A stretch of DNA of 22,472 nt. Origin: a virus. The stretch's first letter is position 1; each line of letters starts with the position of its first letter. This document shows, in pieces, positions 2,684 through 21,226 of the stretch. Location: positions 1-22,472 of the IMG/VR virus record IMGVR_UViG_3300008055_000343. The stretch is one strand, 5' to 3'. Both the position numbers and the translations under genes were made by a program. Under the pieces are notes generated by a model, which was not told the DNA's origin, searched no databases, and was given only the letters and a program-made list of their open reading frames with translations.

Positions 2684-4461
2684 TCGCAGGACTGATCGAT
2701 TCCATTGTTTCTGCCATCGATCCGCTTGCTGGCGTCCGTCGGTTGCAGGCTCGAAAGCTGATGCGTTCCTACCAAGGGGCCGAGCCATCGCGAGTCAGCA
2801 GCAACCGCATCCCAAAGAACAACCCAGCCGACCAGGAACTGCTTGGTCCATTCGGAGCCGACCGACTTCGAGCATGGGGCCGCGACCTCGTTCGCAATAA
2901 TGCCTACGCTTGGGGCGTCGTCGATACGATCGTTTCCTCTGTGGTTGGTTGTGGGATCAAGGCACAATCGACCTTTGAGACACCACAGGGCGACGACGTC
3001 GAATCTATCAACGACGAGCGAGACAAGATCTGGGCCGAGTGGTCCGAAGTCTGCGAGATTAACGGCCAATACACACTCGACGAAATGCAATCGCTGGCAC
3101 AGCGTGAAATCGTCGAAGCTGGCGAAGTGCTGATTCGCATTGTCCGACTTCCATCCAGCGAATACCGAGGCATCTATCGACCCGTCCCATTGGCACTTGA
3201 GCTAATCGAGGCGGATCGACTCGCTGGCGACAAAGACAACTACGCAGCACACCTCGACAACACGACCGGGAACCGCATCGTCCGAGGCGTCGAACTCGAC
3301 GATCTTGGCCGACCAGTTGCCTATTGGATCTACAAGGATCACCCGCTCCAACCGTGGGCATTCACTCGCACACCTGAGCGAATCCCCGCCAATGAGATCC
3401 TGCACCTTTACCGCCACGATCGCATCGGTCAGACGCGAGGCGTTTCATGGTTCGCACCGGCACTGAGCTGGATTCGCGACCTCGGAACCTACGTTGACAA
3501 CGAACTCCAAGCATCCGCGGTTGCATCCTGCTTCACTGTCGCCATTAAGACCGAAACACCCATCGGATCGTTGTCCGATCCTGACGGTGGAGATTCTGTT
3601 GACGCGGCAGGCAACAAGCTCGACTACCTCGAACCAGGCCAGATCGTCCGACTGTCGCCAGGCGAATCGGTCGAAGGGATCAACCCAGGCCGACCGACTG
3701 CCGGAGCTGAACCGTGGATCGCTCTCATCCTCCGAGGCATCGCGGTTGGGACCGGCCTGTCCTACGAGACGGTCGCTCGCGACTACAGCGGAACCTCGTA
3801 CAGTTCGTCCAGAACCAGCCAGCTTGAGGATCGCCGTCGATTCCGATGTTGGCAACAGTATTTGATTCGGCACTTCCTCCAACCCACCTGGGACGCGTTT
3901 TGCGACGCTGCAGCACTTAGCTCCCTGCCGGCGTTCCCCTCCTCCGCCGATCTGCTTAGTGATCGTCGCAGAGCCGTTCCGGTGGAGTGGCAGACACCCG
4001 AATGGGAATGGGTCGATCCCCAGTCCGAGCAATCCGCCGCAAAGGACGCCATCGAAAACTTCATGTCCACCTACCAGACCGAACTCGGTCAGCGTGGCAA
4101 GTCATGGCGATCGGTGTTCTACCAACAATCCAAAGAGCGACGCCTCATGGAGCAGCTCGGCCTCAAGACGCTTCAGCAGCAGCAGGTCGACGTATCCGCG
4201 GCTCAATCATCGATGGCGGCTCCCAGCGAGCCAACACCGATTGGAAGCGGCGAAATGATGGGCCTGTCGACTCTCCAGTTTAACCGCGACCGCAAAGCGA
4301 TCGCCAAAACGCTGGACGATCTCGCCAACGGAGTCATCGGCGAAGCGACTGCCAAGGTGTTCCTGTCGTCGATCGGCATGAACGACGCCAACGCACAAGC
4401 ACTCATCGATGACGCAAAGGATGGATCTGTCGACACTCTGCCAGCCGAGGTGCCTCAATGA
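2680..4461 (+). CDS. portal protein, lambda gpB family
   Basis: A 593-aa protein that forms the dodecameric channel at the prohead vertex, through which DNA enters and to which the tail is attached. The N-terminal region (RNNAYAWGVVDTIVSSVVGCGIKAQ, about residues 72-96), the central GEVLIRIVR and LELIEADRL blocks (about 147-180), EILHLYRHDRIGQTRGVSWFAPAL (about 239-262) and the YETVARDYSGTSYSSSRTS segment (about 360-378) are characteristic of the Phage_portal_2 (lambda) family. The C-terminal ~120 residues are Gln-rich and helical with low conservation, as usual. The start overlaps the gpW-like stop by ATGA and the stop overlaps the capsid gene start (CAATGA), so the three genes are coupled. 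Confidence 0.93.
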   Translation: MIAGLIDSIVSAIDPLAGVRRLQARKLMRSYQGAEPSRVSSNRIPKNNPADQELLGPFGADRLRAWGRDLVRNNAYAWGVVDTIVSSVVGCGIKAQSTFETPQGDDVESINDERDKIWAEWSEVCEINGQYTLDEMQSLAQREIVEAGEVLIRIVRLPSSEYRGIYRPVPLALELIEADRLAGDKDNYAAHLDNTTGNRIVRGVELDDLGRPVAYWIYKDHPLQPWAFTRTPERIPANEILHLYRHDRIGQTRGVSWFAPALSWIRDLGTYVDNELQASAVASCFTVAIKTETPIGSLSDPDGGDSVDAAGNKLDYLEPGQIVRLSPGESVEGINPGRPTAGAEPWIALILRGIAVGTGLSYETVARDYSGTSYSSSRTSQLEDRRRFRCWQQYLIRHFLQPTWDAFCDAAALSSLPAFPSSADLLSDRRRAVPVEWQTPEWEWVDPQSEQSAAKDAIENFMSTYQTELGQRGKSWRSVFYQQSKERRLMEQLGLKTLQQQQVDVSAAQSSMAAPSEPTPIGSGEMMGLSTLQFNRDRKAIAKTLDDLANGVIGEATAKVFLSSIGMNDANAQALIDDAKDGSVDTLPAEVPQ

Positions 4462-6659
4462 CACTTGCCGAGATCAACGCGATTCGTCGCAAGAAGTTTG
4501 CACAAGCGATCGCAAAGAACGATCCTTCGCCAGTTATCCAGCGACAGTTCGGAGTCATCAAGGACGGCAAGGCAGTCATCGCCACCGAGACACCTGTCAT
4601 GGTCTACGACGACGCCAGGCGTCAATGGGTCGCTCAGGTACTGCTCATGAACGGAGTCCGATTCCGTCAGGATCGCAATCAGCTCCCCATCGTCGACAGT
4701 CACAACGACCAGACCGTTCGAAACGTCTTCGGCTCCATCCGATCCATCAAGATCGAGGGCGATGCACTCGTTGGACTCCCCGAGTTCGCCAGCGACGACG
4801 AGAGCCAAAAGATCGCGACTAGATACAACGAGGGACACCTCAACGACTTCAGCATCGACGCACAAATCCTCGCACGTCAGTACGTGCCAGAGGGTCAACG
4901 ATACACGACTCCGAGTGGGAACGTGATAGATGGACCAGCGGAGATTGTCACCGCTTGGGAGCCACACAACGCTTCGATCTGTGCAACGGGTGCAGATCCA
5001 AATTCTACTGTTCGTCGGTCTAGCGACCGGGAAGGGATTACGAGAATGGACGAGGCACTCATGGCCGCAGTTCAAAAACTCGGCGTGCCGGAAGGTATGA
5101 CCGATCCAGTTCAAATCATCACGTTTCTTGCTGGTGCAGCCGGCTCGGAAGCGATCGAGGCACCAGAGATGCCAGAGGTCGAATCGATGATGGATGAAGA
5201 AAAACCAATGGAGGGCGAGGCGGTTCGAGCGGATGCACCAATGCCTGCCGACGCACCATCTCAAGAAGAAGCGGTCAAGGCCGAGGTTGCACGCCAACTC
5301 GCTGCCGAAAAGATCCGCCGCCAAACCATCATCAATGACGTGAAGCTCGCGAGACAAGATCGGGCACTCGCAGACAAGCTCATCGATGACAACGTTTCTG
5401 TTGCAGATGCCCGACGGGAGATTATTCGAAGAATGGCTCAAACACCATTGGGAAGCGGAGCCATCGAAGGCTCCAGCATTGCAGTCACCGTGTCCGAGCA
5501 AGACAAGTTCATGGAAGTCGCATCCGCTGGCCTCGTGCAGCGATGTTTCCAGGGTCAAGTCAAGCGACAGGCACCGCAAGTCCAAGGAGCGGAGCAATTC
5601 CGTAATTTGGGCGTTTACCGTTTGGCCGAACTGTGCGTTCGCCGAATGGGAATCAATCCAGAGCGATACACTCGCCAAGACATCGCACGCATGGCGATGG
5701 GCCACGAGCCAACCTTCAACCGGCTCAACATTCGACGATCGGTAGAGGCGTACCACACCAGCGGATCGTTTGCCAACCTGTTGCTCGACGCAGCAACAAA
5801 GACGCTGCGAGCCGCCTACGAAGAAGCACCTTACACTTGGTCGCTTTGGGCTCGCCAAGCTCAATCGGTCGAGGACTTCAAGAACATCAACCGCATCCAG
5901 CTTGGCGAATCGCCCAACTTGGAAATGGTTCCTGAAGGTGCACCGTATCCAGAGGGAGCGATCAGCGATTCCAAGCGATCGTACAAAGTCGAGAAGTTCG
6001 GCAAAAAGTTCTCCGTCACCTGGGAAACCGTCATCAACGATGATCTCGATGCACTGTCGCGAATCCCAGCCATGCACGGAAACGCAGCTCGCCGGACTCA
6101 AGAGAAGGTGGTCTATGACGCACTTCTCGCGAATCCAACGATGGCTGATGGTTTCGCGTTGTTCTCCGCATCGCACACGAGCGGAACCAACATTACCGCA
6201 ACTTCGGTTGCAGCTCCAGGCGTGACATCGCTCAACGAAGCGTTCAAGCTCATGGGCCTCCAAAAGGGTCTGTCGAGCGACGTCTACCTGAACCTGCAAC
6301 CTCGCACGTTGCTTGTGCCACTTGCTTACTCTGGCACCGCGTTGGAATTGGTAAACAGTCAATCCTACGCTCAGAGCAACGGCAACGAAGGCGTAGTCAA
6401 CATCTACGGCGTGAACGGCGTCCGTCCGTTGCAAGTCGTATCGACCCCGCTGCTCGACGCGAACAGTGCTACCAACTGGTACGCAATCGCCGACAACTCG
6501 CAGATCGACACCGTGGAAATCACCTTCCTGAATGGTGAAGAGTCCCCAGTCCTTGAGAGCGAATGGAACAAGGACAACGACACGTACCACTACTACGTGC
6601 GTCAAACGATGGCCGCAGCGGTCATCGATCACCGCGGCATCTTCGGAAACCGCACCTAA
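4458..6659 (+). CDS. prohead protease-scaffold-major capsid fusion protein
   Basis: One 733-aa polypeptide combines three roles that most phages split. Residues ~1-190 resemble an HK97/U35-type prohead protease: H82 in VDSHND, S132 in LNDFSID, and E168 in AWEPHNASICATGADP are the likely His/Ser/acid residues. Residues ~197-330 are acidic and helical (repeated Glu/Met/Pro, then a long KAEVARQLAAEKIRRQ helix), as expected for a scaffold or delta domain. Residues ~335-733 are the capsid shell protein of the HK97 fold, similar to Mu gpT-like heads (for example RIPAMHGNAARRTQEKVVYD near 534-553). The protease presumably cuts itself and the scaffold away during maturation. An in-frame ATG at 5046 (M197), preceded by GGGAAGGGA, could yield a protease-free scaffold-capsid product. 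Fusions of this type are known as protease/MCP fusion proteins. Confidence 0.88.
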   Translation: MTLAEINAIRRKKFAQAIAKNDPSPVIQRQFGVIKDGKAVIATETPVMVYDDARRQWVAQVLLMNGVRFRQDRNQLPIVDSHNDQTVRNVFGSIRSIKIEGDALVGLPEFASDDESQKIATRYNEGHLNDFSIDAQILARQYVPEGQRYTTPSGNVIDGPAEIVTAWEPHNASICATGADPNSTVRRSSDREGITRMDEALMAAVQKLGVPEGMTDPVQIITFLAGAAGSEAIEAPEMPEVESMMDEEKPMEGEAVRADAPMPADAPSQEEAVKAEVARQLAAEKIRRQTIINDVKLARQDRALADKLIDDNVSVADARREIIRRMAQTPLGSGAIEGSSIAVTVSEQDKFMEVASAGLVQRCFQGQVKRQAPQVQGAEQFRNLGVYRLAELCVRRMGINPERYTRQDIARMAMGHEPTFNRLNIRRSVEAYHTSGSFANLLLDAATKTLRAAYEEAPYTWSLWARQAQSVEDFKNINRIQLGESPNLEMVPEGAPYPEGAISDSKRSYKVEKFGKKFSVTWETVINDDLDALSRIPAMHGNAARRTQEKVVYDALLANPTMADGFALFSASHTSGTNITATSVAAPGVTSLNEAFKLMGLQKGLSSDVYLNLQPRTLLVPLAYSGTALELVNSQSYAQSNGNEGVVNIYGVNGVRPLQVVSTPLLDANSATNWYAIADNSQIDTVEITFLNGEESPVLESEWNKDNDTYHYYVRQTMAAAVIDHRGIFGNRT

Positions 6660-13468: not shown

Positions 13469-14155
13469 ATGCCAGACGTTGAGATCGGAGCGTTTACTCC
13501 CGAACGTGCTCGCCGAATATGGCAGGCCACGCTAGCTTTTGAGCGTGGGATCGATGTCGCTAGCACCGACATGCGTCCAGCGATCGCTCCACCGATCTAC
13601 TTCATCAATCTGTCGAGTCATACAGTTCCACCCTACGGGTGCATTCAGGTCAACGGCGTCGAGGAGATTGGGAGCCAAAACTACTTGCAGATTGCTCGAC
13701 CCTTCGACTACACAAGTTCCGTAATGGCACCGTTCCTATTGAATGGCCCTTACGAGGTCGAGGCAGGCGATCTCGGTGTTGCTCAGTCTGGACCGATCTT
13801 TCGAGCACTGACCGACGGAACCGCCTACGCATGCGGAACCAGGCTCGGACCAGCGGTAGATTCCTTTGAGCTTACCAAGGGAAGCTCCTTCACCGCGATC
13901 TCCTACGATGACATTGGAACCGACATCCTCAAGGTAATCGCATGCGAGACGCCACTACTGGCGACCGCGGGATCGCTCGGGATCGCCGGCAACAGCAGCG
14001 GAACCGTTACGGCCAGGCTCCCCGGTTCCGGCAACTGGAGTCCAGGAACTATCACCTACACCGCATGGGCACCGACTTCGACACCGATCACCGCGAATGC
14101 GATCGTGTTGATATTCCCAGTCGATGCCAAGTGGGTTGCTGTGGAGATCTGCTAA
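13469..14155 (+). CDS. virion protein of unknown function
   Basis: A 228-aa protein with an N-terminal helix (FTPERARRIWQATLAFERG) and a strand-rich body. It contains PPIYFINLSSHTVPPYGCIQVNGVEEIG (about 41-68) and a closing Gly/Thr-rich segment (AGNSSGTVTARLPGSGNWSPGTITYTAWAP, about 172-201). No catalytic motif or membrane segment is visible. It is separated by 3 bases from the previous gene and overlaps the next start by 1 (TAATG), so it belongs to the tail operon. A structural or tail-tip role is inferred from position. The family is not recognised. Confidence 0.65.
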   Translation: MPDVEIGAFTPERARRIWQATLAFERGIDVASTDMRPAIAPPIYFINLSSHTVPPYGCIQVNGVEEIGSQNYLQIARPFDYTSSVMAPFLLNGPYEVEAGDLGVAQSGPIFRALTDGTAYACGTRLGPAVDSFELTKGSSFTAISYDDIGTDILKVIACETPLLATAGSLGIAGNSSGTVTARLPGSGNWSPGTITYTAWAPTSTPITANAIVLIFPVDAKWVAVEIC

Positions 14156-15564
14156 TGGGATGTTTCGGTTCGTGCAACTGCTCACCGTGCTGCATGGATG
14201 CCGCCGAACTCGCCGAGATCGCTACCAGCGTCACTATCCTCAGGGAATCGGAAACGGACACCGTTTCGTTTGTTTCGAATGGATGCTGCCACACAGCAAC
14301 AGCGACCGACGACACCATCTATTACACGTGCGACACGCTTCTAGTCGTCGATCGGACCATCAACGAAACGATCCAAGTTTCGTCGAAGATGATCAAGTCA
14401 AAAAAGTACGTGCTGGATCCGCCTGGAACCTACCAGCAAAACGACGTGTTTTGCACATTCTTTTACGACGAGCCAGACGCAAGTGCAGCCAGCTTTTGCG
14501 ACGACGTCTACAACTGCGGAACGGTGGAACGTGCCGTCGAGCTAAAGACTCAGCGATGGATTGCGGTTCGCTGGGCCTATGGCGAAACGAAGGTATCGAT
14601 CTACAAGGGCAACATGACTTGCGAGTATGGTGGGACCATCGAGTGCAAGTACGTTGTCGAATGTGCTGTCGAGGTCCGAGCTGCTCACGGTGCTGGCTCT
14701 TGGCAGTCGACCACAAGAACCGCATCGATGAGCGGCAAATCGTCATGCTGTGAGGAAAATATCCAGGGCTACGATTTCAACAGTGGATTCCCGCCAGTTC
14801 CGATTCCAGGAGAGGAATGCACATCGACAAAGCCTTACCACGACTCGCCATTCAATTGTCCAGACGATGTCGAGTTTGGAGCAGAGGTAACGTACTGGCT
14901 GTTGCGTTATCGCGTTTACGATGCACCCGAGGACATTCCAGCAACGATCACCTTTACCGATGCAGACGTCAACGAATGCAACTTCGAGACATGCATCGAG
15001 GGCGTCGACTCACTGTGTTTCTATCCAATCGGAGCGAGCCTCGATCCGGTGACTGGCGGAACGATTCGAAGCATCGGTTATCTCTACAATTGCCAGTTCT
15101 GCTTCAACATAGGCATTGAGTGCGATGTCTGTGCCAAGTTCAGCGGCGGATACCCATGCTCATGTGAACCACGCGAAACCGATCGCACTCACTCCGAGTC
15201 TCGATTTACCGAGGACGGAATCATGGAAACGTTCAACGTCGTCAACAATCCGTTTCTCATCAAAACGACGGCTTGCCACAATCTCTTTTGGGAGAACTAC
15301 GCACCAGGCCGATGGACTCAGGATTGCGAGTCGTGCGACAACCCGATCTACCCCGGACCTCCATTAGCAGAGCAGAACGCGTGCAACTACTGGGACTGCA
15401 TCGACTGCTACTTCTCCGGTGCCGATCCCATCGTACCTGTCTATCAAATGAAGGTTGCGACTGTCGACAGCTACACGTTCTCTGTCAATTTCACCAAGCA
15501 GATTGAGCCAACCGACGAGGTTTGCATTCCATTCCCAACGGTTGTCGTTACCCTCAACACCTAA
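14155..15564 (+). CDS. cysteine-rich tail/virion protein
   Basis: A 469-aa protein with about 34 cysteines (7%), beginning MGCFGSCNCSPCCMDAAE. Cysteines continue throughout, often as CxxC or CC pairs: GCC near residue 43, SSCC near 199, NCQFC near 309, CDVCAKFSGGYPCSC near 320-334, ESCDNP near 393, NYWDCIDCYF near 410. The sequence between them is strand-rich, with no membrane segment or signal peptide, and ends in a beta strand (TVVVTLNT). The longer reading from further upstream is rejected, because ATG 14155 overlaps the previous stop (TAATG), the style used by its neighbours. Virion proteins assembled in the cytoplasm rarely have so many cysteines, so metal binding or disulfide formation is likely. 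It is probably a tail-tip or fibre protein; the specific role is unknown. Confidence 0.7.
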   Translation: MGCFGSCNCSPCCMDAAELAEIATSVTILRESETDTVSFVSNGCCHTATATDDTIYYTCDTLLVVDRTINETIQVSSKMIKSKKYVLDPPGTYQQNDVFCTFFYDEPDASAASFCDDVYNCGTVERAVELKTQRWIAVRWAYGETKVSIYKGNMTCEYGGTIECKYVVECAVEVRAAHGAGSWQSTTRTASMSGKSSCCEENIQGYDFNSGFPPVPIPGEECTSTKPYHDSPFNCPDDVEFGAEVTYWLLRYRVYDAPEDIPATITFTDADVNECNFETCIEGVDSLCFYPIGASLDPVTGGTIRSIGYLYNCQFCFNIGIECDVCAKFSGGYPCSCEPRETDRTHSESRFTEDGIMETFNVVNNPFLIKTTACHNLFWENYAPGRWTQDCESCDNPIYPGPPLAEQNACNYWDCIDCYFSGADPIVPVYQMKVATVDSYTFSVNFTKQIEPTDEVCIPFPTVVVTLNT

Positions 15565-15573
15565 CAGGCTGCC

Positions 15574-16890
15574 ATGCGAGTTGGCGTACACTTTGAGAGC
15601 CCAGAGACACGATCCTCGGAACCCAAGCCGATCTCGCAACAGCAGAATCGAGCGTTCGCCTGGTTCGCTCAAAATCCTTGGTTCCACCTCCATCGATACC
15701 GCGGAAACGATCCTGAATGGTTAGAGAAATGGGAACGCACCATTCCACGGTATTGCAAGTGCGAGGAAGGATACCGCCAGATCAAAGAGCGAACACCGCC
15801 ACGCTTCGAGAGTCCCGACAACTTCTTCGAATGGACAATCGACGTTCATAACGAGGTCAATGCAAAGCTTGATAACGAGCGGAAGCGATACCCGCAGATC
15901 ACTGTCGACGAAGCACTTCGTCTCTGGAGATCCGAAATCGCATTCTGGCAACCGATCCATTTTGGTGGTCTTGAATGCTGGTCGATTTCAATGGCTCGCC
16001 GTTTGCGATCCTTCGGAACCGTCGTACACGGCAACATTGCCGATGAGTCTGTGGCCGAGACGCTGCTTGGAATGTCGCCTCGCGTCCGATTGCTCGATGC
16101 AGCAAAGCATGGCGTCCCGATTGTCATGAGCTGCGTTCCAAAGGCCGCACCGATCCTAGACTCCGATTTGATCCTGCTGGCTCACGGATACTGCGACTGG
16201 ACACGCGACTGGGTCATGAGTTCGCACGGCGTCTGCCGGCGTCTGGTGGGTGTTTCCAGGGTTGTCTCGGAGCACGTCACTCGATGGACAGGTCGACCAT
16301 GCGAAACCATTGAAAACGGAATCGAAACCGAGCGACTTGTTCCCACGATCACCCGCGAGGAGATGCGTCTACGTTGCGAGATTCCCCAGGACGCTTTTGT
16401 CGTCGGCTACACAGGACGAATTGCCGGCGAGAAACGCTGCGAGCTGCTCGTTCAGGCTGTTGCACGAATGGACGGAGCGTACCTCGTCCTTTGCGGTTGG
16501 CTCACCAAGCATGCCGAGCGAGTGCGGCAGATTGCCGACGATCTTGGAATCAGCCATCGAGTCCGCATGATCGAGCCCATCCAGCAGATCGGCGACTTCC
16601 TCAATGCCATCGACGTCTTCGCGACGGTTCCATCGAGCGAGGGATTCGGGCTATCGGTCGTCGAAGCGATGCACTTTGGCCTGCCAGTAGTCTCGACCAA
16701 TCTAGGAATCATGCACGATCTTGCCGAGCGTCACGGAGACTTCGGACCATCGATCCTTGATGTGTACGCGGACGCGTCGGCTGTAGCACATGCTATAGAA
16801 ACCGCCACGGCATGCAGCATCGACCTCAGCGAGTACACAGCGGACGCAATGGCGGATCGCTGGAGACGGTATTTGTCAATCGACACCTAA
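15574..16890 (+). CDS. GT4-type glycosyltransferase with Erv/ALR-like N-terminal segment
   Basis: A 438-aa protein. Residues ~120-438 form a GT-B glycosyltransferase of family GT4: FGGLECWSISMARRL near 130-144, GVSRVVSEHV near 226-235, VVGYTGRIAGEKR near 276-288, and the sugar-nucleotide motif EGFGLSVVE with E356 and E364. Before it, residues ~26-105 look like the helical core of Erv/ALR sulfhydryl oxidases: WFHLHRY, then IPRYCKC (C61-K-C63), PPRFESPDNFFEWTIDVHNEVNAKL with the hallmark HNxVN at 92-96. The redox pair is CxC rather than the usual CxxC, so activity is uncertain. It lies 9 bases after the very Cys-rich virion gene. It may glycosylate, and perhaps oxidise, a phage virion or host-surface target. 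The enzyme class is firm. The substrate and the Erv relationship are inferred. Confidence 0.82.
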   Translation: MRVGVHFESPETRSSEPKPISQQQNRAFAWFAQNPWFHLHRYRGNDPEWLEKWERTIPRYCKCEEGYRQIKERTPPRFESPDNFFEWTIDVHNEVNAKLDNERKRYPQITVDEALRLWRSEIAFWQPIHFGGLECWSISMARRLRSFGTVVHGNIADESVAETLLGMSPRVRLLDAAKHGVPIVMSCVPKAAPILDSDLILLAHGYCDWTRDWVMSSHGVCRRLVGVSRVVSEHVTRWTGRPCETIENGIETERLVPTITREEMRLRCEIPQDAFVVGYTGRIAGEKRCELLVQAVARMDGAYLVLCGWLTKHAERVRQIADDLGISHRVRMIEPIQQIGDFLNAIDVFATVPSSEGFGLSVVEAMHFGLPVVSTNLGIMHDLAERHGDFGPSILDVYADASAVAHAIETATACSIDLSEYTADAMADRWRRYLSIDT

Positions 16891-16906: not shown

Positions 16907-17923
16907 ATGACAGAAAAACGACCCGGACCACCTCACACGCCAGCTCGTCTCTACCTGGAGGAACTCTGCCGCAAATTCCCCGACGCAAGCAATCTCGGCC
17001 TAGCCAAACGAGCAAAGGCCGAACGACCAAACAGTTTCCGCAGCGTCGAAACAGCTCGGAGCACCATCCGCTCCATCCGCGGTGCACACGGAGCCGAAAA
17101 GAAGAAATTCGCTACCCAGCCAAGGCCAAAGGGAACTGCTGGTCAGGTTCCAAAGATGCCACCCAGTCTCTCAACCGCGTGGGAACCATTCGAAATCGAC
17201 GCCAAACGAGTCGGCATCATCTCAGACGTTCATATCCCCTACCACGACGAAACAGCGTTCTCCGCTGCCGTGAAGGAACTCAAAAAGCAATCACCAGACT
17301 GCTTGCTCATCAATGGCGACTTCGCCGACTTCTACCAAGTCAGCAGGCATCAGCGAGATCCGCACCATCGACGATTCTCGGAGGAACTAAAGCTAGTGAT
17401 CGGAGGCCTGGAGTGGATTCGCCATGAGTTTCCAAATGCACGCATCGTATTCAAATTAGGCAATCACGAAGAACGCTGGGACCATTTTATTTGGAACCGA
17501 GCACCGGAGATCTACGACCTCGCGAACGTTCGCATCGGCGAACTGGTCAAGGCCAAGCAGTTTGGCATCGAGGTGATCGGCGACCAAAGGCCGATCATGT
17601 TGGGCAAGCTGCCAGTCCTCCACGGCCACGAGCTTGGCCGCTCGATCTTCTCGCCGGTCAACCCTGCCAGAGGTGCATTCCTCCGAACGCATCACACGGT
17701 CTTGGTTGGACACTCGCACCAGACATCCGGCCACGCCGACACCGATATGTTCCACTCGGAAACATTCGTGTGGTCCACTGGTTGTCTCTGCGATCTCACG
17801 CCTGAATATGCTCGCGTAAACAGATGGAACCACGGATTCTGCTGGGTGGACATCGCGACCGACGGCAGCTTCTCCGTGCGAAACATGCGGATCACCAAGC
17901 ATGGCGAAATTCGAGGTGCATGA
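16907..17923 (+). CDS. calcineurin-like metallophosphoesterase
   Basis: A 338-aa protein with the five metal-binding blocks of the superfamily in order: D107 and H109 in SDVHIPY, D138 in NGDFADF, N186-H187-E188 in LGNHEERW, H239-x-H241 in VLHGHE, and H269-x-H271 in VGHSHQ. These coordinate a dinuclear metal centre that hydrolyses phosphomono- or diesters. Residues ~1-65 are a separate basic helical segment with ETARSTIRSIRGAHG, a nucleic-acid-binding-like extension that I have seen associated with phage members of this family. GGATGGATTGAG precedes the ATG, and the stop overlaps the next gene. The substrate cannot be told from the sequence: nucleic-acid processing or modification of a nucleotide are possible. 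Confidence 0.85.
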   Translation: MTEKRPGPPHTPARLYLEELCRKFPDASNLGLAKRAKAERPNSFRSVETARSTIRSIRGAHGAEKKKFATQPRPKGTAGQVPKMPPSLSTAWEPFEIDAKRVGIISDVHIPYHDETAFSAAVKELKKQSPDCLLINGDFADFYQVSRHQRDPHHRRFSEELKLVIGGLEWIRHEFPNARIVFKLGNHEERWDHFIWNRAPEIYDLANVRIGELVKAKQFGIEVIGDQRPIMLGKLPVLHGHELGRSIFSPVNPARGAFLRTHHTVLVGHSHQTSGHADTDMFHSETFVWSTGCLCDLTPEYARVNRWNHGFCWVDIATDGSFSVRNMRITKHGEIRGA

Positions 17924-20394: not shown

Positions 20395-20407
20395 TTACGT
20401 CGGTTCA
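20372..20407 (-). repeat. 10-bp inverted repeat spanning the zinc-protein stop
   Basis: TGAACCGACG (20372-20381) and CGTCGGTTCA (20398-20407) are perfectly complementary, with a 16-nt loop holding the TAA stop of the - strand gene. The hairpin has no T-run, so it is a possible processing or weak termination structure between that gene and int. One arm also contains a T-loop-like GGTTCAAATCC on the - strand. Confidence 0.4.
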
Positions 20408-20778
20408 GGTTTCTTTTTTGCTGAGCGTTTCGCGGGAACCTCTTTGCTTTTTGCCTGTTGATCGGAAGATTTACGACCCGCTGGACGTCCTCCACTACCA
20501 GCAAAGTAGCATCGTCCCTCGGCAATCAAAGCGTCCCAAGTAGAACCTGCTTTTACTTCTGCACCAAGCCGGTTGTAGCATCGGTAATGACACTTGCGCG
20601 TTGGTTTTTCATTGCCTAATGGCTCGCCGCATGCCAAGCAGATCTCGGCTTCAATGAGATGACGCCGCGATTCGGGGAATGTGGCCTCCTCCGCTTCGCC
20701 TACAGACAACTCTTTTCGAATTGCCTCAAGCTCTGTGATGATCTTTCCCAGTTGCTGCGTCAGTTTTTTAGTTTGCAT
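20395..20778 (-). CDS. zinc-motif regulator candidate, leftward (repressor-position) gene
   Basis: A 127-aa protein. Residues ~1-25 form a charged amphipathic helix (KLTQQLGKIITELEAIRKEL) that could dimerise. Then comes ICLACGEPLG with C47-x2-C50, followed by H64-x2-C67 in KCHYRCYNRL, a C2HC zinc motif. Residues ~96-120 are basic (GGRPAGRK, then KRSAKKK), resembling an AT-hook-like DNA-binding tail. It is paralogous to the rightward gene at 20963: both share ICLACG-x2-LG, HY-x-CY, and GGRP. It sits where lambda cI sits: divergent from an early operon and reading toward int. A candidate promoter with a perfect operator in its spacer ends 6 bases before the ATG, which would make the mRNA leaderless. 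A regulatory role is inferred. Confidence 0.7.
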   Translation of the reverse strand: MQTKKLTQQLGKIITELEAIRKELSVGEAEEATFPESRRHLIEAEICLACGEPLGNEKPTRKCHYRCYNRLGAEVKAGSTWDALIAEGRCYFAGSGGRPAGRKSSDQQAKSKEVPAKRSAKKKPEPT

Positions 20779-20813: not shown

Positions 20814-20918
20814 GTCCCTATGCCTCAAATGGTTGCGAATTCCTAACGGTTTTTGTTAGGAAACTAATTCCGAAAAAGTTTCTTCGGGTGCCTAGAAAAC
20901 TGTTGCCGAAACAGTTTC
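20791..20918. promoter_or_regulatory. operator-like array GAAAC-N-GTTTC
   Basis: Two perfect 11-bp palindromes, 20791-20801 (centre T) and 20908-20918 (centre A), lie near the two divergent genes. Related half-matching sites lie at 20860-20870 (GAAACTAATTC), 20872-20882 (GAAAAAGTTTC) and 20896-20906 (AAAACTGTTGC), each with one or two mismatches. Sites 20860, 20872, 20896 and 20908 fall on a 12-bp ladder (12, 24, 12). Such phased palindromes between divergent regulators are typical operators. The binder would be one or both zinc proteins, or the HTH protein; this is an inference. Confidence 0.6.
20840..20862 (+). repeat. inverted repeat TTCCTAAC/GTTAGGAA
   Basis: A perfect 8-bp inverted repeat (20840-20847 and 20855-20862) with a 7-nt loop (GGTTTTT) lies in the middle of the divergent regulatory region, between the leftmost operator and the 12-bp ladder. 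It could be another protein-binding site or an RNA hairpin. No gene is nearby to which it clearly belongs. Confidence 0.4.
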
Positions 20919-20931
20919 TTTCCGATACCAT
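20903..20931 (+). promoter_or_regulatory. candidate rightward early promoter with operator in spacer
   Basis: TTGCCG (20903-20908) and TACCAT (20926-20931) are separated by 17 bp, with about 4 of 6 consensus matches each. The perfect palindrome 20908-20918 lies at the -35 end of the spacer, so a bound protein would block RNA polymerase. The predicted start near 20938 leaves a short leader containing AAGAGGAA before the ATG at 20963. Confidence 0.35.
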
Positions 20932-20962
20932 CCTCTGCCGTTGGAACTTTGTTCAAGAGGAA

Positions 20963-21226
20963 ATGGTTGTGAAAACAAAACGGAATACAAAGATTTGCCT
21001 TGCTTGCGGCAAGGCGTTAGGGACAGGCGGACGGGTTGTTCGCGGAGTTCATTACAACTGCTACCGAGCAATTCTGAGAAAGATCTGGCGAGGTGCAGCG
21101 ACAGACATGGATTGCGTTGAAGAGGGCTTGATGTTGCTGCCAGCCAAAGGCGGTCGCCCTCCATCGAATCCAGCAACGTTGCGAATGCAGTATGGAGCCA
21201 AGCGATGCTCTACCGCAAAGAAGTAG
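20963..21226 (+). CDS. zinc-motif regulator candidate, rightward (Cro-position) gene
   Basis: An 87-aa basic protein. ATG 20963 is chosen because AAGAGGAA lies directly upstream. An upstream GTG at 20888 would put the operators inside the gene. The zinc motif is C12-x2-C15 (ICLACGKALG) with H30-x2-C33 (GVHYNCYRAIL), and the GGRPPSNP motif at 63-70 is followed by a basic tail. It shares ICLACG, LG, HYxCY, an acidic EEG step and GGRP with the leftward 127-aa gene, so the two are paralogues transcribed away from each other. It lacks the N-terminal coiled helix of the other. Being first in the early operon, it occupies the position of lambda cro. It overlaps the next gene by 22 bases. The function is an inference. 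Confidence 0.7.
   Translation: MVVKTKRNTKICLACGKALGTGGRVVRGVHYNCYRAILRKIWRGAATDMDCVEEGLMLLPAKGGRPPSNPATLRMQYGAKRCSTAKK

Follow-up and report, generated by a model that had tools for sequence, protein, structure and literature searches.

Sulfhydryl oxidases encoded by the virus itself are known from large DNA viruses of eukaryotes. Among these, ASFV pB119L (3gwl), mimivirus R596, and poxvirus E10R are compact Erv-type oxidases that act on structural proteins produced in the cytoplasm, and all retain a CxxC active site. To our knowledge, none of them lies next to a dedicated Cys-rich client gene. The R596 oxidase is fused to an ORFan domain (PMC3509050) rather than to a glycosyltransferase, and published descriptions name CxxC as the signature of the Erv family (PMC10598087). 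The closest described proteins also include ALR, Erv1, and Erv2 (PF04777; 1oqc, 3o55, 1jr8), as well as QSOX, in which an Erv domain is joined to a second functional domain, a thioredoxin domain. Our literature search found no phage-encoded sulfhydryl oxidases of this kind.

Here, we analyze a 22,472-nucleotide stretch of viral DNA (IMG/VR record IMGVR_UViG_3300008055_000343, positions 1 to 22,472), which we refer to as the window. Because it carries genes for a terminase, a lambda-type portal, a protease-capsid fusion, a neck protein, a tail tube, and an integrase, we assign it to a temperate tailed phage. The nearest isolate-phage terminases are 22% identical to that of the window. A plasmid search with the integrase gave one distant Deinococcus match, and a planctomycete host is no more than a guess. 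Beside the integrase gene, a divergent pair 109 bp apart, at 20395-20778 (-) and 20888-21226 (+), encodes paralogues (36% over 59 aa, E 3e-9) with a common zinc-finger-like motif, ICLACGxxLG...HYxCY; these could be lysogeny regulators. A 725-aa open frame at 4455-6632 (-), antisense to the protease-capsid gene at 4458-6659 (+), is most likely a composition effect and not a gene.

The locus considered here consists of the following features:

14155 to 15564, + strand: gene for a Cys-rich protein (469 aa, 34 Cys), the proposed oxidase substrate, directly upstream of the Erv open reading frame
15574 to 16890, + strand: open reading frame of 438 aa, a fusion of an Erv-like domain and a GT4 glycosyltransferase
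15649 to 15888, + strand: Erv/ALR-like domain, residues 26-105 (PF04777, ALR profile match, Erv fold)
15679 to 15693, + strand: WxxLH motif, W36-H40, flavin-site residues (W and H in 120/120 relatives)
15754 to 15762, + strand: CxC active-site pair, C61-K-C63 (CxC in 116/120 relatives, CxxC in 4/120)
15847 to 15861, + strand: HNxVN motif, H92-N96 (H, N, and N in 120/120 relatives)
16357 to 16812, + strand: GT4 glycosyltransferase domain, residues 262-413, with E356-x7-E364 (PF13692/PF00534, phrog_2170)
16907 to 17923, + strand: metallophosphoesterase gene, next downstream (phrog_221, E 1.5e-36; PF00149)

We think it likely that this phage encodes an FAD-dependent sulfhydryl oxidase with a shortened CxC disulfide, which oxidizes its Cys-rich neighbor in the host cytoplasm; FAD binding and activity are inferred.

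An Erv/ALR-type domain in front of a glycosyltransferase

Residues ~26 to 105 are an Erv/ALR-type domain, for which both homology and fold are clear. The Pfam family Evr1_Alr (PF04777) matches the N-terminal 130 aa at 34.6 bits (E 2.6e-8) and the whole 438 aa at 31.6 bits, with a curated cut-off of 27.6 bits. When the window protein was compared with the PDB by plain phmmer, ALR and Erv1 came out on top at only E 0.03-0.2. A family profile of 37 relatives matches ALR structures at E 5e-15 and ASFV pB119L, which is also matched by fold, at E 1.6e-14. Because PF04777 scores above its cut-off and the ALR profile matches, the Erv motifs in this open reading frame are beyond chance; a chance motif is further ruled out by PF04777 matches of 37/37 diverse relatives taken individually (E 0.01 or better). 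An artefactual reading frame is likewise ruled out, by eight full-length homologues (77-97% identical) and by a dN/dS of 0.03-0.11 in each half of the frame, which indicates purifying selection.

An AlphaFold2 model of the domain has a pLDDT of 80 and a pTM of 0.72, and in Foldseek its ranks 1-29 are exclusively Erv/ALR/QSOX proteins (best E 9e-3), with a probability of 1.00 for the best 18 of them. The top matches have moderate TM scores of 0.57-0.60; the absence of ~ten residues between helices 1 and 2 may be the cause. A reading made from the sequence only had proposed an Erv/ALR-like segment here and had named a predicted fold other than an Erv bundle as one refutation, and both homology and predicted fold have upheld it. 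The motifs it listed (a CxC pair, PPRFES...FFEW, and HNEVNAKL) are all present, as C61-K-C63 and H92-N-E-V-N96-A-K-L among others, and only its W-x-LH spacing needs correcting, to W-x-x-L-H (W36-F-H-L-H40).

The fusion to a glycosyltransferase, also claimed there, is equally real: PF13692 scores 75.1 bits against a cut-off of 27, GT4 families match at E about 1e-20, and E356 and E364 are invariant in 9 homologues, so that the E-x7-E criterion of GT4 is met. By profile and motif, the C-terminal half thus resembles other GT4 enzymes (PF13692, PF00534; phrog_2170) and is assigned to this family, its sugar transfer being inferred. Unlike GT4 proteins generally, it is preceded by an Erv-like domain. 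The pairing of an Erv domain with a second functional domain recalls QSOX, but the partner here is a glycosyltransferase and not a thioredoxin domain; a Pfam scan of the 438 aa found no thioredoxin family, and the QSOX criterion is unmet.

Active-site and flavin-site residues across the family

Searching IMG/VR for a DNA pattern that encodes FFxWxxxxHNxVN gave at least 119 stretches, and each of the first 80 inspected (80/80) was an open reading frame arranged like an Erv domain. Uncultured phage contigs contain at least 120 distinct relatives of the domain, and the active-site counts given here refer to 120 distinct domain sequences among the matches listed. Across a 37-member alignment of diverse relatives, W, H, P, Cys, F-F, W, H-N, V, and N are invariant. 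In a side clade (L019, L020, L022, L026, L041, L044, L061, L074, and others), a GCPC Erv domain forms the C-terminal part of a longer protein, the N-terminal part of which has no assigned family.

None of the 37 diverse relatives has a match in PHROGs, and four different queries against 50,697 isolate phages revealed no convincing carrier of an Erv domain. The sole match to the window domain is weak and lies inside a dUTPase (E 0.3); one relative fused to a glycosyltransferase gave only weak Synechococcus phage matches at residues 117-184, beyond the Erv domain, and two further relative types gave nothing. When the genomes of 84,980 bacterial and archaeal species were scanned for the motif, with a pattern that would overlook Ervs lacking FF, 36 matches came up, none of them a true Erv domain (chance). 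PF04777 was not found in four bacterial genomes, a search without a positive control; it has been reported from Pirellula, Verrucomicrobiaceae, and a few other bacteria (PMC10598087).

The CxxC spacing is gone in 97% of the 120 distinct sequences listed. The CxC types (116/120) comprise CDC, CPC, CSC, CQC, CKC, and others, and a canonical PCxxC remains in 4/120. Since CxxC is the published signature, strict Erv/ALR membership fails on the active site, and with this spacing unmet (C61-K-C63), the window domain is classed as a CxC variant of Erv/ALR. The criterion of flavin-site residues (W, H, and HNxVN) is met in 120/120, and the two active-site Cys are kept in every one of the 120 relatives listed.

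Alignment to human ALR places C63 at C145, the second active-site Cys, in a column that is Cys in 120/120; the W before HNxVN is just as constant. We take C145 to be the flavin-proximal Cys, as is established for the family. The C142 column is non-Cys in the CxC types, with the partner Cys one residue closer. Like ALR, Erv1, and Erv2, the window domain is a helical bundle with WxxLH, the flavin-proximal Cys, HNxVN, and a terminal W in the same order. Unlike them, the family is phage-encoded and has CxC in place of CxxC in 116/120, and the window domain has a shorter first helix region, a fused glycosyltransferase, and no shuttle pair. In the window subgroup, D-N and an insertion stand where G-K would otherwise follow HNxVNxxL. 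A shuttle pair is likewise absent from many compact viral Ervs (PMC3509050).

That the CxC forms a redox-active disulfide is an inference. Precedents for redox-active CxC are the CPC of Mia40 (PMC4019985) and the Cys-X-Cys shuttle disulfides that occur in cellular Ervs (PMC3509050). One could instead read the domain as a catalytically dead Erv fold that serves the Cys-rich protein as a chaperone or docking module, with the CxC either structural or in a mixed disulfide with the client. The loss of CxxC spacing in 116/120 relatives listed would fit this, as would two features of the window subgroup, its changed G-K motif and its short first helix. A dead scaffold, however, would not need both Cys and all flavin-site residues, which are invariant, and the same type of Cys-rich neighbor accompanies the CxxC and the CxC versions. 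We therefore regard a dead fold as unlikely and favor a CxC oxidase.

The Cys-rich upstream gene and the glycosyltransferase fusion

The start of the Cys-rich gene at 14155 to 15564 overlaps the preceding stop as TGATG. A Cys-rich gene (4-9% Cys) adjoins the Erv gene upstream except in one side clade, the CPC clade, which has none at position -1. Across 21 non-redundant loci (the side clade excluded), a Cys content of at least 4% was found for 18 of 20 upstream genes. Only 19 of 108 same-strand neighbor genes of at least 200 aa are Cys-rich, 18 of them at -1 and the remaining one at -2, beside a Cys-rich -1 gene (hypergeometric P for position -1, 2.5e-17, uncorrected for shared ancestry). In a reverse scan of IMG/VR with the Cys-rich N terminus, an Erv domain came next after 39 of the 39 Cys-rich genes that could be evaluated, although some contigs were identical to those of the first scan. 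The canonical CxxC type (L036/L096) has the same pairing. The earlier suggestion that the Cys-rich neighbor is the substrate thus gains strong support from both search directions, the identity of the substrate being inferred. That suggestion also described the neighbor as a virion protein with about 34 cysteines; the 34 Cys and the adjacency stand, but virion status is not shown, and the gene can be placed only at the end of the tail-gene block.

The upstream genes split into several groups that BLASTP keeps separate, some of which, to judge by a common MGCFGxCxC start, are probably remote homologues. An alignment of 15 relatives of the Cys-rich protein shows Cys columns 95% conserved versus 41% at other positions, and Cys accounts for 25 of 46 invariant columns. 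The protein is predicted to be beta-rich (pLDDT 81), with strands of up to 38 residues. It has no Pfam family above cut-off, no PDB sequence match, and no credible fold match in the PDB or BFVD; against PHROG, one relative gave one weak unnamed match (E 0.0035).

Dense clusters of CC, CxC, and CxxC, notably an N-terminal MGCFGxCxCxxCC, would also suit a protein that binds metal or iron-sulfur clusters, in which case the Erv-like domain would provide redox maturation or protection and there would be no structural disulfides. We consider this improbable: the Cys are scattered along a long, beta-rich protein whose gene lies among tail genes, relatives differ in Cys number (18 to 48), and Erv-family enzymes are known disulfide makers. 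The Cys-rich partner of the proposed oxidase is most likely structural, a tail-distal or fibre-like protein stabilized by disulfides, its location in the virion being inferred.

C-terminal extensions of at least 100 aa are present in 18 open reading frames among the matches listed. They are GT4 in the window group, GT-A/GT8-like in L023, L027, L029, L042, L071, and L072, and a domain without family assignment in L048/L069. The GT-A/GT8-like extension has an invariant DAD and weak GT8 and glycogenin PDB matches, and Pfam Glyco_transf_8 falls below cut-off in two. On a tree of 95 columns that is poorly resolved, no fewer than three changes under starred branches are required for the GT-A label by itself, so the fusion appears to have been gained or lost more than once. 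After the L048-type fusion, the gene at L048:8163-8720 (+) resembles, on visual inspection, an FkbM-type methyltransferase and could be another modification enzyme adjacent to the Cys-rich/Erv pair.

Most relatives are solo, with no glycosyltransferase in the same or next gene, which rules out a glycosyltransferase as the general key partner. A metallophosphoesterase is the recurring +1 gene in many relatives, and since a phosphoesterase, and not a glycosyltransferase, follows in the solo loci examined, we view the fusion as an add-on and the Erv/Cys-rich pair as the core. Fusion in phages, for which the sequence-only reading had suggested a search, was indeed found and is recurrent in uncultured phage contigs, but it is a minority state. 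What characterizes the family is its CxC active site together with a Cys-rich partner; glycosyltransferase fusion is optional and recurrent.

The best solved-structure matches of the glycosyltransferase part (window 15964-16887) include 5d00, a bacillithiol-type glycosyltransferase (N-acetyl-glucosaminyl malate synthase), and 3c4q/3c48. These are thiol-cofactor enzymes, and the matches probably reflect plain GT4 kinship. An enzyme of low-molecular-weight thiol synthesis among the nearest structures, within what is a very large family, together with the fusion to a GT4 domain in the window protein and to GT-A-like domains in other relatives, could be taken to mean that the Erv-like domain serves the glycosyltransferase as a redox switch or acceptor-binding module and that the Cys-rich adjacency is incidental. 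This we find very hard to credit, given the predominance of solo relatives and a Cys-rich gene adjoining nearly all members outside one clade, in both search directions.

Proposed oxidative-folding mechanism

We propose that a compact, FAD-dependent domain of Erv/ALR ancestry, its active-site disulfide shortened from CxxC to CxC, would be made directly after the Cys-rich protein and introduce disulfides into it in the host cytoplasm. C61 would exchange with substrate thiols and C63 would be the flavin-proximal Cys, electrons passing from client thiols through the CxC and FAD to oxygen, most likely, or to another acceptor. In the window subgroup, the oxidase would be tethered to a GT4 enzyme that probably modifies the same or a neighboring virion protein, a target that is likewise inferred. 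The proposal rests on data for homology, fold, conservation of the flavin-site residues and both Cys, purifying selection, and gene pairing. Counting against it are the lost CxxC, D-N in place of G-K, the moderate TM scores, the CPC clade without a Cys-rich neighbor, and the reducing state of a bacterial cytoplasm. The three alternatives (a dead Erv fold, metal-center maturation, and service to the glycosyltransferase) are weaker but remain open.

Disulfide formation and glycosylation are hallmark modifications of the eukaryotic ER. It is conceivable, though we hold this only tentatively, that uncultured tailed phages carry a cytoplasmic oxidative-folding line consisting of a flavin oxidase with a CxC active site shorter by one residue, one Cys-rich structural client whose gene lies immediately upstream, and, in several lineages, a fused glycosyltransferase, with one protein placing both disulfides and glycosylation on one client.

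Conservation of a CxC Erv-like domain with a matched client, in at least 120 distinct sequences, would amount to a natural experiment, showing how the spacing of the active site determines Erv redox chemistry. The Erv/Cys-rich pair could also offer a ready enzyme-client pair for disulfide-rich proteins in the bacterial cytoplasm. Our findings suggest that these phages themselves supply the means of disulfide bonding for a single dedicated partner protein, and the pair could signal that some phages assemble disulfide-hardened components within a reducing cell.
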